Shown piece after piece: positions 2,222 through 13,899 of a stretch of 32,985 nt of DNA. The notes under the pieces were generated by a model. The model made no database searches. It was not told where the DNA came from and saw only the letters and a program-made list of their open reading frames with translations. How positions within the stretch are numbered: position 1 is the first letter of the stretch; the number at the start of each line of letters is the position of its first letter. The DNA is from Sulfurimonas sp. (GTDB taxonomy: Bacteria; Campylobacterota; Campylobacteria; Campylobacterales; Sulfurimonadaceae), in assembly GCF_019429335.1 (NCBI RefSeq), contig NZ_JAHYJB010000017.1:1-32985 (forward strand), in the 5' to 3' direction. The translations under genes were made by a program, and so were the position numbers.

Positions 2222-4216
2222 CTAGATTATCCTGTCGCTTCCGCCGTCTATTGCGACTTGGGAGCCTGTTGTTTTTGCAAACGCTCTTCCCGCCATCGCA
2301 CATACAAGCTCCGCAACATCGTCTGATTTTATCTCAGTTTTAAGCACATTGTTTGTTTTGTACTCCTCAACGCTCATGTTATAGGCTTTTGCACGATTAG
2401 CCAAAACTTCATCACTCCATATAGCCGTGTCAAATACAGCGTGCGGGTGAAGTGTGTTTACGCGCACTCCAAACTCTCCAAGCTCTAACGCGGCAATACG
2501 TGCAAGCTGTGTCTGTCCTGCTTTTGCAACAGAGTAAGCCGCCGCACCTTTTCCGGGAGCTGGAAAGTTTTTAGAAGCGACCATGATTACCGTTGCATCA
2601 ACGCCAAGCTTTAAAAACGGAGCCGTATATTTGAGCAGTTTTTGGTGCGAAGTAAGATTTATATCCATACTTCTTTGCCAATTCTCATCGCTTAAACTAT
2701 CAAGATTTTCACTTGGCGTAAAGATGCCTGCATTGCTTACAACTATGTCGATACCGCCAAAACTCTTAACCGCTCTCTCTATTGCATTTTTAATATCATT
2801 ACTACATGTTAAATCACATTTAACGCCGATTGCATCGCTCTTTGCAAAGATTTTCTCAACTTCTGGGTTGATGTCAAGAGCCACAATTGCAGCACCTCTT
2901 GAGTTTAACATCTTTGCGATTGCAAGCCCTATTCCGCTTGCCGCTCCAGTTATAAGGGCAACTTTTCCGCTAAACTCAGGCGCATTTGCGCCCCCTTTTA
3001 GCTTTGCCTGTTCAAGCGACCAGTACTCAACTTCAAAGATATGTTGTGCGCTCAGAGCTTTGTAACCGCCTAGTTTTTCGGCTTTTAAAATAGCCTCAAA
3101 GGTGTGGTCGTTTATATCTTTTATGATGTTTGCCTCTTTTGCATTTGCACCAAAAGAGAGAGTTCCCTGCCCTTTTAATATAGCAAAATTCGGAGCGGGA
3201 TTTAAAAGAGTCTCCGTAGTTCTGTTTGCTTCAAAATACTCTTTATACTCTTTTACAAAATCTGCCAAATCTGCTCTGAAGTCATCTCCCAAAATCGCAG
3301 GAACTCTTTTTGTTCTTATAACATGGTCGGGCGTAAGCGGACCTTGTGTGGCGATTTTTTCAATATTTTGCTTTGAAAAGTACAGAGCCAAATCGCTGTC
3401 ATTATAGATTGAAACGGTTGCCCTGCCTTTTAAGCTTGAGACCTCTTTTCTTATCTTTGCAAGGGTTAAAAGTTCTACATGCGCTGTGAGGAACGAGGAA
3501 GTACTCTTGGGGTGTGAAGTCTCTTTTTCTACATGTAGATTTGCGCCCTTAGTCTCAAGATACCTCTCTGCCCTCTCCACAAGCTCTATCGTCTTCTCGT
3601 AAGATTTTTTTGCATCATCATTGAATGTAAAAAGACCGTGGTTCATAAGAACCATCCCCTCCAACTTGCTCCAATCAACATCTCTTGTCATATCATAGAT
3701 AAGTTTTGCAAGAACAAATCCCGGCATAATGTATGGAATAACCAAAACAGTCTCACCGTAAAGCTCTTTTATCTTCTCTTCGCCGCTCTGGGTATTTGTG
3801 ATGGTTACAACAGCGTCGGTATGGGTATGGTCAACAAATTTAAAAGGGATAATGGCATGCAGTATCGCTTCAACGGATGGGTTTGGAGCAGATGGATTTG
3901 TCATAGCAAGGCGCTGATATTTAACCATATCGGTATCACTCAGCTCTTTTAACTCCGCCATTTTTAAAAGCATATCCATCTTTACGGGTGCGAATCCCTC
4001 CGCCTCGATGGTTGCCAAATCCCAGCCGCTCCCTTTGACATAAAGAATCTCTTCAATCTCTCCAAAAAGGTTTGTAGCAGTTGATTTTACAGATGTGTTT
4101 CCGCCGCCGTGAAGAACCAAAGAGGCATCACGCCCAAGCAGTCTTGAGGTGTAAACCCTTAAATCCAAATCTGTTTTAAACTCATTTGCCTCTTTGTCGC
4201 TGTATAAACTTCTCAT
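2222..4216 (-). CDS. Bifunctional class II aldolase / short-chain dehydrogenase fusion
   Basis: 664 residues in two domains. Residues 1 to about 400 form a class II (AraD/FucA/RhaD-like) aldolase, with LHGGGNTSVK near the N terminus, the zinc site DHTHTDAV and a third ligand in MNHGLFTF. Residues from about 425 to the end form an SDR with TGAASGIG, NAGI and the catalytic S...YSVAK set. Known relatives of this fusion are rhamnulose-1-phosphate aldolase/lactaldehyde dehydrogenases, giving DHAP plus an oxidised aldehyde. Here it is the third gene after mtnK and mtnA, joined by a TAATG stop/start overlap. The likely substrate is therefore 5-methylthioribulose-1-phosphate or 5-deoxyribulose-1-phosphate, cleaved to DHAP plus (methylthio)acetaldehyde or acetaldehyde that the SDR then reduces or oxidises. 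Domain calls are sure; substrate is inferred from context. Confidence 0.9.
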   Translation of the reverse strand: MRSLYSDKEANEFKTDLDLRVYTSRLLGRDASLVLHGGGNTSVKSTATNLFGEIEEILYVKGSGWDLATIEAEGFAPVKMDMLLKMAELKELSDTDMVKYQRLAMTNPSAPNPSVEAILHAIIPFKFVDHTHTDAVVTITNTQSGEEKIKELYGETVLVIPYIMPGFVLAKLIYDMTRDVDWSKLEGMVLMNHGLFTFNDDAKKSYEKTIELVERAERYLETKGANLHVEKETSHPKSTSSFLTAHVELLTLAKIRKEVSSLKGRATVSIYNDSDLALYFSKQNIEKIATQGPLTPDHVIRTKRVPAILGDDFRADLADFVKEYKEYFEANRTTETLLNPAPNFAILKGQGTLSFGANAKEANIIKDINDHTFEAILKAEKLGGYKALSAQHIFEVEYWSLEQAKLKGGANAPEFSGKVALITGAASGIGLAIAKMLNSRGAAIVALDINPEVEKIFAKSDAIGVKCDLTCSNDIKNAIERAVKSFGGIDIVVSNAGIFTPSENLDSLSDENWQRSMDINLTSHQKLLKYTAPFLKLGVDATVIMVASKNFPAPGKGAAAYSVAKAGQTQLARIAALELGEFGVRVNTLHPHAVFDTAIWSDEVLANRAKAYNMSVEEYKTNNVLKTEIKSDDVAELVCAMAGRAFAKTTGSQVAIDGGSDRII

Positions 4217-5301
4217 TAATTGCTCTTTTTAAATTTTTCTTGAATTTTATCGAAATCTGCCTCGCAAACTCCTCTGTTTGTTATAAGTCCTGTTATAAGT
4301 CTTGCCGGAGTTACATCAAAACCGTAGTTTATAGCAGGAGAATCCTCAGGAGTTATACGCACTTCACGCACCACTCCTTCGCTATCCACTCCTTTTATAA
4401 ATCTAACCTCATCAGCGCTTCTCTCTTCGATGGGAATCCCTTTTACGCCGTCTCTGATTTCAAAGTCAAAAGTTGATGTCGGAATTGCCACATAAAAAGG
4501 GACGTTGTTATCGTGTGCAGCGAGTGCCTTTAGGTAAGTTCCTATCTTGTTTGCCACATCACCGTTGGCACTTACTCTGTCCGCCCCGACAATCACCATA
4601 TCCACCATTCCGTGCTGCATAAGATGTCCGCCCGTATTGTCGGCTATGATTGTATGCTTTATGCCGCTTTGAGAGAGTTCCCATGCGGTGAGTGAGGCTC
4701 CCTGATTTCTAGGTCTTGTTTCATCAACCCACACATGAACATCTATTCCTCTTCTCTTTGCCTCATAGATCGGTGCGAGCGCTGTTCCCTCATCTATAAC
4801 TGCCAACCAGCCTGCATTGCAGTGAGTTAAGATATTTATCTCTGTTTTGCCGCTCTTTTTTAAAATATCTTCAATGATGTTACAGCCATACTCTGCTATT
4901 TTTTGGCTCTCAAGTGCCTCTTCGTCATTTAGCTCTATAGCAAATCTTCTTGCATCATCTACTAAATCATCCGAATCTTTTAAAAGCTCCATCATCTTAT
5001 CAACTGCCCACATAAGGTTAACCGCTGTAGGGCGGGACTCTCTTATCAATACCGCTTTCTCTTTTAGAGCTTCGTAATCTCCCTCGACCTCAATCGCGGC
5101 TATATAGATCCCAAATGCTGCAACACTCCCGATAACTCCCGCACCGCGAACTGTCATATTTTTTATCGCATTTACGACTTCCTCGGTATTTGTAAGGTGT
5201 CTTGTGTCATAAACAAACGGAAGCTGCCTCTGGTCGATCACCTCAAGACACTCGTCAAAAAGGTCATCGTTTAGCCATAACGCTTTGTAGTTACCCTGCA
5301 T
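4216..5301 (-). CDS. mtnA: S-methyl-5-thioribose-1-phosphate isomerase MtnA
   Basis: 361 residues, normal length. It converts (5-methylthio)ribose-1-phosphate to the ribulose-1-phosphate form and belongs to the eIF2B-alpha-like isomerases. Visible signatures are MTVRGAGVIG, the catalytic Cys in LTHCNAGWLA, DETRPRNQGASLTAWEL, and the catalytic Asp in VGADRVSANGDVANKIGT. It overlaps the upstream mtnK by 11 bp and the downstream aldolase start by one base, so translation of the three is probably coupled. MtnA enzymes are known to accept 5-deoxyribose-1-phosphate too. No mtnB, mtnC or mtnD is visible nearby, so the classical return to methionine is not supported by this locus. Confidence 0.95.
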   Translation of the reverse strand: MQGNYKALWLNDDLFDECLEVIDQRQLPFVYDTRHLTNTEEVVNAIKNMTVRGAGVIGSVAAFGIYIAAIEVEGDYEALKEKAVLIRESRPTAVNLMWAVDKMMELLKDSDDLVDDARRFAIELNDEEALESQKIAEYGCNIIEDILKKSGKTEINILTHCNAGWLAVIDEGTALAPIYEAKRRGIDVHVWVDETRPRNQGASLTAWELSQSGIKHTIIADNTGGHLMQHGMVDMVIVGADRVSANGDVANKIGTYLKALAAHDNNVPFYVAIPTSTFDFEIRDGVKGIPIEERSADEVRFIKGVDSEGVVREVRITPEDSPAINYGFDVTPARLITGLITNRGVCEADFDKIQEKFKKSN

Positions 5302-6517
5302 TTTTCATTATCTCCAATATCTCATCTATGCTCTCAATCTTGTCGTACTTTATTACAAACTCTCTGGCAATTTTTAGAGCCATCCTCTCGGCATCGGCTC
5401 TAAGAGCCTCATCCTCGATCCCTCTTATCTCCTCTACTCCCGCAACGCCGTAAACTCTTCTAGCCATCTTACAGCCTGCAAATCCGACACTATCTCTTAA
5501 AATATTTTTTACAAATCTCTCTTTGTAATTTTTCAGTGACACCTCATCAAGGTAGCCATCTACAAGTAGAGCGGACTCTTTTGATTCGCTCCAAAAGCTT
5601 AAAAACTTCTCGCTAAACTTCTCTAAAATATCTTTAATGGTTAGCAAAAGCCAGCTCTTGTAATCCTCATCTTTTGTAACAACACTGTGATGGATGTAGT
5701 TGTTCACCAAGTTAGCCAAAAGAGCTCCGACATCAAAACCAAACGGTCCTACAAACGCGAATTCAGGGTCTATTATGTAGGTATCATTCTCATTTATCAT
5801 AATGGAGCCTGTATGCAGATCTCCATGAAGCAGCGCGTCACTTTGCGTCATAAATTTATATTTGAGCTCCAACACCTTCTCTTTAAACTCCATGTCCGAA
5901 AAAAGTTTTTGTGCATCAGGATTGTTCTCTACGTTCTCATTATCGTTTGTCTCATGCTCCATAAAGGGAAAACTAAAAACAAGATCTTCGGTCAGTTTGC
6001 ACAGCTCCCTGTTGCCGTTGAATCTCTCTACGAGCTCTCTTTTTTGAGCACTGCTAAGGTATAGAGATGAAGTGTAGTAGAGCGTAGCCGCCATATATGT
6101 TGAGATATGCCCACTGAAATTTTTATATTTCACTCCTCCGATAAGCCCTTTTCTCATGATTATGTGGCTGCCTAGATAATCCATAACAACCAGACTCATC
6201 TCTTCGCTTGCATGATGGATTTTAGGGACAAAACTCGGAAAAATAGTATAAAATTTCTGCAATGCCCTTATCTCGTAGATCATTCTCTCTCTACTAAGAG
6301 GAAAATCCTCGCCTACACATCTGAGAAACGGTACTGCCTGCTTTGCAATAAGAGCTTTTTGAGGATTTTTTACGGAGCTTATTTTGTAGACATAGTTCAG
6401 ATTGCCATCACCTATCTCATCGGCTCTTATTTCATCGGAGCCAAAATAGTTCATAACGCTCTTTATGTTTGAAATATAATCGATAATAGTCTCTACATTC
6501 AGTACTCTGTAATTCAT
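5291..6517 (-). CDS. mtnK: S-methyl-5-thioribose kinase MtnK
   Basis: 408 residues. It has an aminoglycoside-phosphotransferase/choline-kinase fold, with the catalytic-loop motif LLHGDLHTGSIMIN and the metal-binding IDPEFAFVGPFGFDVG, both characteristic of MtnK. It phosphorylates 5-methylthioribose at C1 with ATP and may also act on 5-deoxyribose. It is the first gene of the operon; AAAGGAG precedes the ATG at 6517, and a TACAAT -10-like hexamer lies on the minus strand at 6548-6543. An MTA/SAH/5'-deoxyadenosine nucleosidase would be needed upstream in the pathway and is not in the window. Confidence 0.93.
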   Translation of the reverse strand: MNYRVLNVETIIDYISNIKSVMNYFGSDEIRADEIGDGNLNYVYKISSVKNPQKALIAKQAVPFLRCVGEDFPLSRERMIYEIRALQKFYTIFPSFVPKIHHASEEMSLVVMDYLGSHIIMRKGLIGGVKYKNFSGHISTYMAATLYYTSSLYLSSAQKRELVERFNGNRELCKLTEDLVFSFPFMEHETNDNENVENNPDAQKLFSDMEFKEKVLELKYKFMTQSDALLHGDLHTGSIMINENDTYIIDPEFAFVGPFGFDVGALLANLVNNYIHHSVVTKDEDYKSWLLLTIKDILEKFSEKFLSFWSESKESALLVDGYLDEVSLKNYKERFVKNILRDSVGFAGCKMARRVYGVAGVEEIRGIEDEALRADAERMALKIAREFVIKYDKIESIDEILEIMKNAG

Positions 6518-8465: not shown

Positions 8466-9464
8466 TTAATTGCCATATTGTTCTTCCCAAGCTTCAAACT
8501 CGGGAGTGAAGTACTCTATTCTTACTTTTTTAAACTCTCTTGAGCTGTAAAGCGGCATGTGGCTTTTTGAATCTATCTCCAGAGCCATCTCCTCTATAAT
8601 TGCATTTGTCTCCTCAGTGCTCTTTCCGTGAACCATTGTAAAGAGATTATACTGCCAATTCTCATACTTCGGGCGAAGGTAACAGTGGCTTACAGCGCTA
8701 AAAGCAGCCGCTTTTTCGCCTATCTCCTCTCCGTTTGCTTCATCAACATCCCATACAACCATGGCATTTGCACCAAAGCCTGCTTTTCTGTGGTTTAGGA
8801 TTGAGGCAAATCTTCTCATGACCCCTGCCCCTTGAAGTTCGTTTAATACATCAAAAAAAGTATTATAGTCAATATTCAGAGTATCTACAATATTCTTGAA
8901 AGGCTCCCTTACCATCTCTATATCGTTTTGTGCATATCTAATGATAGCGTGATGCAGAGGAGTAAGCTCAATATCTGTATGCGTTACTCTCTTTACCTCC
9001 TCTTTTTTCTGATCTTTTCCGGTAGTGTCTAGTTTTACGTTGATTTTAAAAAGCTTAAGAGTTGGAAGAGTGATATAATCCTCAGCGCCCGTAGCCTCTG
9101 CTAAAAATCCTACGGTTTTTTCCAGTCCGAGCTTGGACGTAGGTGAAACAGCAACGGTAAACCAGATGTTAAAGTCATGGTTTCTCTCATAATTATGCGA
9201 TATTCCCGGATGCGAATTTATAATCTTAACCGCATCACTTATCTTCTGCGGGGGAATTTTAAAAGCAACAAGAGATGATATATACCCCAATCGTTTAGTG
9301 TCAAATATCGCGGATGTCTGACGTATGATATTGCTTTTTTTCTGCTCTTGCAAAATCTCAAGAACCTCATCTTCACTCATATCCAATTCATCCGCTATCA
9401 CTTTAAACGGTCTTGCAACCAAAGGAAACTTCTTCTGAATACGTGATAAAATTTCGTCTTTCAT
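8466..9464 (-). CDS. nirDL: Siroheme decarboxylase, fused NirD-NirL (AsnC/Lrp-like)
   Basis: 332 residues made of two similar halves, each an N-terminal HTH followed by an AsnC-like ligand domain. The first half carries GISHNYERNHDFNIWFTV (about residues 87-104); the second carries SHCYLRPKYENWQYNLFTMVHG. These are the conserved His/Arg stretches of NirD/NirL/AhbA/AhbB siroheme decarboxylases, which convert siroheme to 12,18-didecarboxysiroheme. Fusion of the two subunits as NirDL is known in some denitrifiers. It is the first gene of a five-gene minus-strand operon; an FNR-type box with a matching TACAAT -10 lies upstream. SD GGAG is placed 10 bases before the ATG. Confidence 0.93.
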   Translation of the reverse strand: MKDEILSRIQKKFPLVARPFKVIADELDMSEDEVLEILQEQKKSNIIRQTSAIFDTKRLGYISSLVAFKIPPQKISDAVKIINSHPGISHNYERNHDFNIWFTVAVSPTSKLGLEKTVGFLAEATGAEDYITLPTLKLFKINVKLDTTGKDQKKEEVKRVTHTDIELTPLHHAIIRYAQNDIEMVREPFKNIVDTLNIDYNTFFDVLNELQGAGVMRRFASILNHRKAGFGANAMVVWDVDEANGEEIGEKAAAFSAVSHCYLRPKYENWQYNLFTMVHGKSTEETNAIIEEMALEIDSKSHMPLYSSREFKKVRIEYFTPEFEAWEEQYGN

Positions 9465-9504
9465 CTTCTTGTTACTCCGTCCATGCTTTTATTTTATTTT
9501 ATTA

Positions 9505-9510
9505 ATTGTA
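9505..9510 (-). promoter_or_regulatory. -10 element of nirDL promoter
   Basis: TACAAT on the minus strand. The centre of the FNR-type palindrome (9539.5) is 41.5 bp from the start site this -10 implies (about 9498), the classic class II activator geometry. Confidence 0.65.
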
Positions 9511-9532
9511 ATCTAATTTCAAGTGACACAAG

Positions 9533-9546
9533 TTGATTTTTATCAA
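9533..9546. promoter_or_regulatory. Perfect FNR/CRP-family box between nirDL and siroheme synthase gene
   Basis: TTGATTTTTATCAA is an exact match to the FNR consensus TTGAT-N4-ATCAA. It lies in a 141-bp divergent intergenic region. Both flanking promoters have a -10 hexamer at the distance expected for a site centred at -41.5: TACAAT (9510-9505, minus) and TATTAT (9569-9574, plus). The regulator could be an FNR, DNR or NssR-like protein; the box does not tell which. Confidence 0.8.
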
Positions 9547-9548
9547 TA

Positions 9549-9566
9549 ATAGTTTTTAAAAACTAT
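9549..9566. promoter_or_regulatory. 18-bp perfect palindrome overlapping the siroheme-side promoter
   Basis: ATAGTTTTTAAAAACTAT is self-complementary over 18 bp. It lies between the FNR box and the plus-strand -10, covering about -32 to -15 of the siroheme-synthase promoter. That is a repressor-like position; for nirDL it is upstream of the activator site. It may be an operator for a second regulator. Confidence 0.5.
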
Positions 9567-9568
9567 GA

Positions 9569-9574
9569 TATTAT
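9569..9574 (+). promoter_or_regulatory. -10 element of precorrin-2 dehydrogenase promoter
   Basis: TATTAT (5/6 to consensus) at the distance that puts the FNR box at -41.5 from a start near 9581; the gene begins 25 bp further at a TTG. Confidence 0.65.
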
Positions 9575-9605: not shown

Positions 9606-10175
9606 TTGAGTTATTTTCCAGCCTTCTTAAAATTAGATAACAAAAAGATTCTAATCGTAGGCGGAGGCTGTATAGCCTTTGAAAAACTTGAACATCTCTT
9701 GGATTTTACTTCTGACATCTCCATAATAGCACTTAAGCTATCACCAGATATGAAAAGAGTTATAGAAGCCAGAGGTCTCTATTTTGAAAAAAGAGCCTAT
9801 AACGAAGGTGACATAAAAGATTTTGCCGTAGTTATTGTCGCCGTAGATGACATTGGACTTCAGGCACGGATATTCGCAGAATCCAAAAACTACAACTGCC
9901 TTTGCAACTCTGTGGATTCCGTAGATTATTGCGACTTTATTTTTCCATCTTACGTGAAAAAAGATGATCTTACCATTGCGATCTCCACCTCAGGAGCATC
10001 TCCGGCTGTTGCAAAACATCTGAGAAAATATCTTCAGAAGTTAATTCCCGCTAGCATCGGTGATTTTTTGCAAGAGATGAAAGAGTTAAGAAAAACCCTG
10101 CCAAAGGGCAAAGAGAGAATGAAAATGCTTGACAAAAAAGCAGAAGATTATATAAAAACATGGGATAAAAAATGA
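9606..10175 (+). CDS. Precorrin-2 dehydrogenase / sirohydrochlorin ferrochelatase (CysG N-domain/Met8 type)
   Basis: 189 residues. It oxidises precorrin-2 with NAD+ to sirohydrochlorin and inserts Fe2+ to give siroheme. Visible features are the Rossmann motif ILIVGGGCIAFEKLEHLL, the acidic VVIVAVDD region, CNSVDSVDYCDFIFP, and the conserved STSGASPAVAKHLRKYL helix. The start is TTG (reads MSYFPAFLKL) with AGAGG upstream; no ATG fits. In enterobacterial CysG this is fused to the methyltransferase; here the methyltransferase is a separate gene 11 kb away (21096). It overlaps the next gene by 4 bp (ATGA). Confidence 0.92.
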   Translation: MSYFPAFLKLDNKKILIVGGGCIAFEKLEHLLDFTSDISIIALKLSPDMKRVIEARGLYFEKRAYNEGDIKDFAVVIVAVDDIGLQARIFAESKNYNCLCNSVDSVDYCDFIFPSYVKKDDLTIAISTSGASPAVAKHLRKYLQKLIPASIGDFLQEMKELRKTLPKGKERMKMLDKKAEDYIKTWDKK

Positions 10176-10549
10176 ACATAAAAAAAGCTTTAATTTTCGG
10201 ATTTTTCACAGCCTTTTTAATACTGGGAGTAGTCACAATGAAAAGAGCGCTTCCTGAAGCAAAAGAGGAGCGTATATACACGGCTATAAAAGTTTACAGC
10301 CCTTACGTTGTAGAGAAAAAAGTAGGCGGACTAAATATCATTGACAAAAGAAACGGGGAAAAAGAGAGTCCTAGCTCTAAAGAAATTTTTCACAGACTTG
10401 ACGAACTTGACAAAAAGTGGGCAAAAGAGCACCTTAGAGTTGAAAACAACGAGATTATAATTATAGGTGAGAATAATCAGAGTGTTGCTAGAATCTTTAT
10501 TGAGACAGAAAAAGAGAGAGCGTTTGTTAAAAGATTTTACGGCATTTAA
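10172..10549 (+). CDS. Membrane-anchored unknown, coupled to siroheme synthesis gene
   Basis: 125 residues with one N-terminal helix (about residues 5-22) and a predicted soluble domain rich in charged residues and short beta-strands (VENNEIIIIGENNQSVARIFI). No Cys or His cluster. Its ATG overlaps the upstream stop, so it is under the same FNR-type promoter. Family not recognised; a role in siroheme or heme d1 handling at the membrane is only suggested by position. Confidence 0.6.
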   Translation: MNIKKALIFGFFTAFLILGVVTMKRALPEAKEERIYTAIKVYSPYVVEKKVGGLNIIDKRNGEKESPSSKEIFHRLDELDKKWAKEHLRVENNEIIIIGENNQSVARIFIETEKERAFVKRFYGI

Positions 10550-13829: not shown

Positions 13830-13899
13830 CTTGTTTAGAAATAAATAGGACTAAACTACTCTTGATTCTGAAAAATTTAGTAATTGAAGGAGAGACAAA

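Follow-up and report, generated by a model that had tools for sequence, protein, structure and literature searches.

One Crp/Fnr-type operator between divergent siroheme decarboxylase and precorrin-2 dehydrogenase genes in Sulfurimonas: a predicted two-way class II promoter conserved among relatives

Bidirectional promoter regions built around a single Crp/Fnr-family site have been described in several bacteria. In Dinoroseobacter shibae, a single Fnr/Dnr site is located between nirS and nosR2, at 39.5 bp from one transcription start and 41.5 bp from the other; lacZ fusions show dependence on DnrD/FnrL in both directions and mutation of the site abolishes nirS expression (PMC5398030). In the hemA3-dnrE region of the same organism, a single site is predicted at 41.5 and 39.5 bp from the respective starts (PMC5398030). 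For E. coli, 11 divergent pairs with a single CRP site have been listed (PMC3105977), and that paper cites a model study by El-Robh and Busby. Within the Campylobacterota, a review reports no FNR ortholog and describes Nss proteins that answer to nitrate, NO, and N2O (PMC6682613). The Nss regulators of Wolinella succinogenes and Nitrosophilus labii recognize a TTGA-N6-TCAA site and have nap, nor, and nos targets (PMC6682613, PMC11539149). In N. labii this site begins 48-49 nt before the predicted starts of napA, norE, and nosB (PMC11539149), which places its centre at -41.5/-42.5.

We analyzed a 32,985-nucleotide stretch of DNA (the window) from the sulfur-oxidizing genus Sulfurimonas, which belongs to an assembly of 2.06 Mb in 73 contigs. 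An earlier note on this DNA had described an FNR palindrome serving divergent genes for siroheme supply and decarboxylation, with promoters placed symmetrically on its two sides. Profile matches to AhbA/AhbB and to the cysG N-terminal/precorrin-2 dehydrogenase families confirmed the gene identities, i.e., nirDL on the left and precorrin-2 dehydrogenase (sirC) on the right. Re-reading of the sequence likewise located the perfect palindrome and both hexamers, TACAAT and TATTAT, where they had been claimed. The arithmetic of the symmetry also held, given that both predicted starts lie 7 nt past their -10 and 41.5 bp from the palindrome centre. The features are:

8466..9464, minus strand: fused siroheme decarboxylase (AhbA + AhbB in one chain, NirDL-like), 332 aa; NF040708 1.9e-79, NF040707 7.6e-74; PF17805, PF22451
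9498, minus strand: predicted nirDL transcription start, 7 nt past the -10; box centre at -41.5
9505..9510, minus strand: nirDL -10 TACAAT (plus strand ATTGTA), 29.5-34.5 bp from the box centre
9533..9546, either strand: common Crp/Fnr-type operator TTGATTTTTATCAA, centre 9539.5; perfect TTGAT-N4-ATCAA match
9569..9574, plus strand: sirC -10 TATTAT, hexamer 29.5 to 34.5 bp from the box centre
9581, plus strand: predicted sirC transcription start, 7 nt past the -10; box centre at -41.5
9606..10175, plus strand: precorrin-2 dehydrogenase (SirC/CysG N-terminal domain); TIGR01470 5.2e-36; PF13241, PF14824
13816..13829, plus strand: second box TTGATTTATGTCAA, with a TAAACT -10 at +29.5 (13852-13857)

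Residues 3-147 of the decarboxylase match AhbA and residues 174-318 match AhbB; its closest named relatives are from Sulfurimonas genomes, at up to 90 percent identity. The sirC gene starts with TTG, with AAGAGG upstream. A norCB-like pair, nirS, nirJ, a nirF-like gene, and cobA are also present in the window. As expected of genes for heme d1 synthesis, siroheme decarboxylase and precorrin-2 dehydrogenase thus have nirS/nirJ/nirF/cobA nearby, and the most likely role of the decarboxylase is in heme d1 supply. An ORF of 125 aa at 10172-10549 overlaps the end of sirC and matched no family. Its homologue (by eye) directly faces nirDL in the related locus L107, so this ORF seems linked to the pathway. 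Elsewhere in the window, 2222-6517 holds a row of genes for S-methyl-5-thioribose kinase, its isomerase (MtnA), and a class II aldolase fused to a short-chain dehydrogenase, an arrangement that resembles a compact operon for methylthioribose salvage (DHAP-shunt-like).

Perfect boxes occur 12 times in the 2.06 Mb genome, compared to 8 occurrences of the reversed control pattern, and at this density about 0.0008 would be expected by chance in the 141-bp nirDL-sirC gap. The sirC -10 is preceded by TGA, forming an extended -10 (TGnTATTAT, 9566-9574), and is overlapped by a second candidate, TATGAT at 9564-9569, with a start that would put the box at about -36.5. A -10 look-alike on its own is weak in such AT-rich DNA; its significance comes from an offset that is conserved among relatives.

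Two further sequences were considered as operators and rejected. The 18-bp perfect AT-rich palindrome ATAGTTTTTAAAAACTAT (9549-9566), between the box and the sirC -10, is absent from all relatives examined and is incidental. The nirDL -10 region resembles a degenerate second box, TTAATTGTAATCTA (9502-9515), which reaches 9 of 10 in L027, L030, L066, and L108. Many relatives have kept the -10 but no longer have the half of this sequence that adjoins the main box, and we therefore attribute the conservation of the segment to the -10.

We compared 73 distinct divergent nirDL-sirC intergenic regions, using the box type TTGAY-N4-RTCAA. A box was present in 72 regions, and 67 of these have a single operator common to the two promoters, the other five having two; the sole region lacking one among the 73 was L114, with a gap of 77 bp. 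Among the relatives with this region is a cultured strain, S. indica NW8N (L060). Register was then counted in 42 non-redundant regions (less than 80 percent alike) as the offset of TAnnnT from the box centre, with shuffled flanks as control. Offsets on the right were taken from the nearest box; anchoring on the best box picked the wrong box in the two-box loci and, together with 1-bp shifts in some loci, blurred the signal. On the nirDL side, TAnnnT stood at 29.5 in 39/42 relatives. On the sirC side it stood at 30.5 in 27 and at 29.5 in 9 (36/42 together), with offset 25.5 enriched too (16/42); these counts, like those of the boxes, come from relatives that share ancestry and are not independent. 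In shuffled flanks the best offset averaged approximately 5-6 (nirDL-side mean 5.1) and never exceeded 10. Box-anchored columns carried mostly 0.2-0.7 bits in the flanks, 1.5-2.0 bits at the nirDL -10, and 1.5-2 bits in the half-sites, the last partly since boxes were selected.

The locus thus has a TTGA-N6-TCAA site centred at about -41.5 from the predicted starts and a -10 in fixed register. From the offsets of 29.5 and mostly 30.5, the predicted geometry is -41.5 for nirDL throughout and usually -42.5 for sirC; on the sirC side the window belongs to the minority at -41.5. The mirror symmetry is therefore true of the window but is not the conserved state, given that the sirC side usually lies 1 bp further out. 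The broader proposal, that one dimer could act in class II fashion both ways, is well supported by comparative sequence on both sides and by the loci with two boxes.

These loci (L063, L067, L090, L094, and L101) carry two abutting boxes with centres 14 bp apart. In 5/5, each -10 keeps its register with the box on its own side, at 29.5 on the left and 30.5 on the right. In the decarboxylase tree, which comes from a quick search and has many open forks, the five form one group (support 94) inside the single-box loci; on this tree the single common box accordingly appears as the older state and the two-box clade as derived.

The left -10 is far stricter in its position than the right, with 39/42 at one offset compared to 27 and 9 at two. 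This would fit activation of nirDL only, with sirC having an ordinary promoter whose -10 falls near the box by coincidence, and L119 and L124 fit it as well, as their neighbour is (by eye) an unrelated ArsC/Spx-like gene and the box serves nirDL alone. We nevertheless consider such one-sided activation unlikely: the right -10 register is far above that of shuffles and tracks the second box throughout the two-box clade. Activation in both directions is the reading that we prefer. Neighbours are also replaced at other loci. In L113 and L116-L118, napA (identified by N-terminal sequence) takes the place of sirC, the nirDL box is kept, and another box lies on the napA side. In L107, where the gene facing nirDL is the homologue of the one that follows sirC in the window, a -10 lies at 29.5 on both sides (by eye).

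Searches with the PF13545 and PF00027 profiles found three Crp/Fnr proteins in the genome. The 4-Cys Fe-S motif of FNR was not found in any of the three, whose cysteines number 0, 2, and 2 and form no N-terminal cluster. Two of them, encoded at G000:C53:8991-9620 and G000:C65:85614-86282, are candidate regulators with a PETLSR recognition helix; these hold 0 and 2 cysteines, again with no cluster at the N-terminus. PETLSR carries E-x-x-S-R, which reads TTGAT in FNR. The genome hence encodes Crp/Fnr proteins that combine an FNR-like helix with the lack of an iron-sulfur cluster, as expected of the Nss/Dnr type. One candidate adjoins napA together with a PilJ-like sensor, and the other ends a nos-accessory operon that starts with a box. 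No candidate Crp/Fnr gene is adjacent to nirDL-sirC in this genome; 16/80 relatives have PETLSR Crp/Fnr genes no more than 5 kb from nirDL, and relatives of both candidates occur throughout the genus and order. The regulator is likely an Nss/Dnr-type protein that responds to nitrate, NO, or N2O, an assignment of the candidates made by neighbourhood and type only, and to name which of them binds the box would be a guess.

The earlier note had instead named FNR as the regulator. A true O2-sensing FNR, with anoxia as the signal, would suit the half-sites, which are the exact FNR consensus. This reading is barely credible, since the only three proteins of Crp/Fnr size have the cysteine content given above and the review reports no FNR ortholog in the phylum (PMC6682613).

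We consider it probable, from comparative sequence, that the nirDL-sirC region is a bidirectional, activator-dependent promoter under an Nss/Dnr-type Crp/Fnr dimer. The proposal builds on the observed box, -10s, geometry, conservation, gene identities, and suitable regulators; its steps of binding, activation, signal, and alternation are predictions. When nitrogen oxides are present, the dimer would bind the palindrome and, from about -41.5, bring RNA polymerase to the siroheme decarboxylase gene on the left. The same dimer would recruit polymerase in the opposite direction to the precorrin-2 dehydrogenase gene. The predicted starts are only approximately 83 bp apart, so two polymerases probably could not sit together and would alternate. 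At bidirectional promoters of E. coli, which differ from nirDL-sirC in geometry, one polymerase binding event blocks the other (PMC12825309). Siroheme formation and the decarboxylation that leads on to heme d1 would thereby be co-induced, as would the nor/nir cluster with its own box. We also propose tentatively, at somewhat less than even confidence, that the single Nss-type operator was the ancestral two-way switch for supplying and decarboxylating siroheme in Sulfurimonas and that one lineage duplicated it, relieving polymerase competition. If true, the duplicated abutting operators, each with its own -10 kept in register, would document how a common operator split in two in nature.

Crp/Fnr proteins can also repress. 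In N. labii, nosZ and one Crp/Fnr gene are negatively correlated (PMC11539149), so repression somewhere by such a protein is possible. It is nonetheless very unlikely that the bound dimer acts at nirDL-sirC as a roadblock to both genes: a centre at -41.5/-42.5 is where class II activators normally bind, since among the E. coli promoters that FNR activates and whose starts are known, 19/23 have their site at -41.5 +/- 4 (PMC3688515), and a fixed spacing to each -10 is required for activation, not for a roadblock. Activation from the common box thus remains our preferred model for both genes.

The second box in the window lies upstream of a 108-aa ORF and the norCB-nirS-nirJ-nirF-cobA cluster, 4.3 kb from the nirDL-sirC box, and is probably in the same regulon. 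Genome-wide, TTGAYN4RTCAA is in mild excess (20 vs 13 for the control), so position is evidence and the box alone is not. When the 20 boxes were sorted by a simple ORF rule into 10 intergenic and 10 intragenic ones, TAnnnT stood at exactly 29.5 on a side in 7/10 of the former vs 0/10 of the latter (hypergeometric ~0.0016). The intergenic boxes include the one before the nor/nir cluster, and others precede a NosL-like nos-accessory operon, a pair of NnrS-like genes, and an HPP-like membrane protein (these three named by eye); the box L126, before dnaG, looks fortuitous. At L139:8991-14089, a same-strand gene run follows a box that has TATGAT at offset 29.5, with the NosL-like gene first and a Crp/Fnr regulator last. 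It is possible that this regulator is autoregulated.

Through the nirDL-sirC region, a single operator would couple two successive steps in the supply of heme d1 in a widespread group of denitrifying chemolithoautotrophs that lack FNR. It also offers a compact testable case, in which one site serves two promoters that are probably mutually exclusive and relatives have the site doubled. Compared to the described systems, D. shibae nirS-nosR2 is alike in having one Fnr/Dnr-type site between divergent denitrification genes, but belongs to an Alphaproteobacterium with a true FnrL and three Dnr proteins and controls other genes. The hemA3-dnrE region shares a target in tetrapyrrole synthesis; however, the enzyme is a different one and its partner is a regulator gene. 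The E. coli single-CRP-site pairs likewise have one Crp-family dimer between divergent promoters, but respond to cAMP and mostly concern carbon metabolism. The Nss systems of W. succinogenes and N. labii are similar in phylum, in the TTGA-N6-TCAA site, and in the spacing of 48-49 nt between the beginning of the site and the predicted transcription start; the parts of these accounts considered here (PMC6682613, PMC11539149) describe no common divergent nirDL-sirC site. Bidirectional control from a single site is hence already known in kind from D. shibae nirS-nosR2, whereas the deeply conserved nirDL-sirC case is new. What sets nirDL-sirC apart from nirS-nosR2 is its deep conservation and the lineage with a split site; by sequence evidence it is a real, conserved two-way class II promoter.
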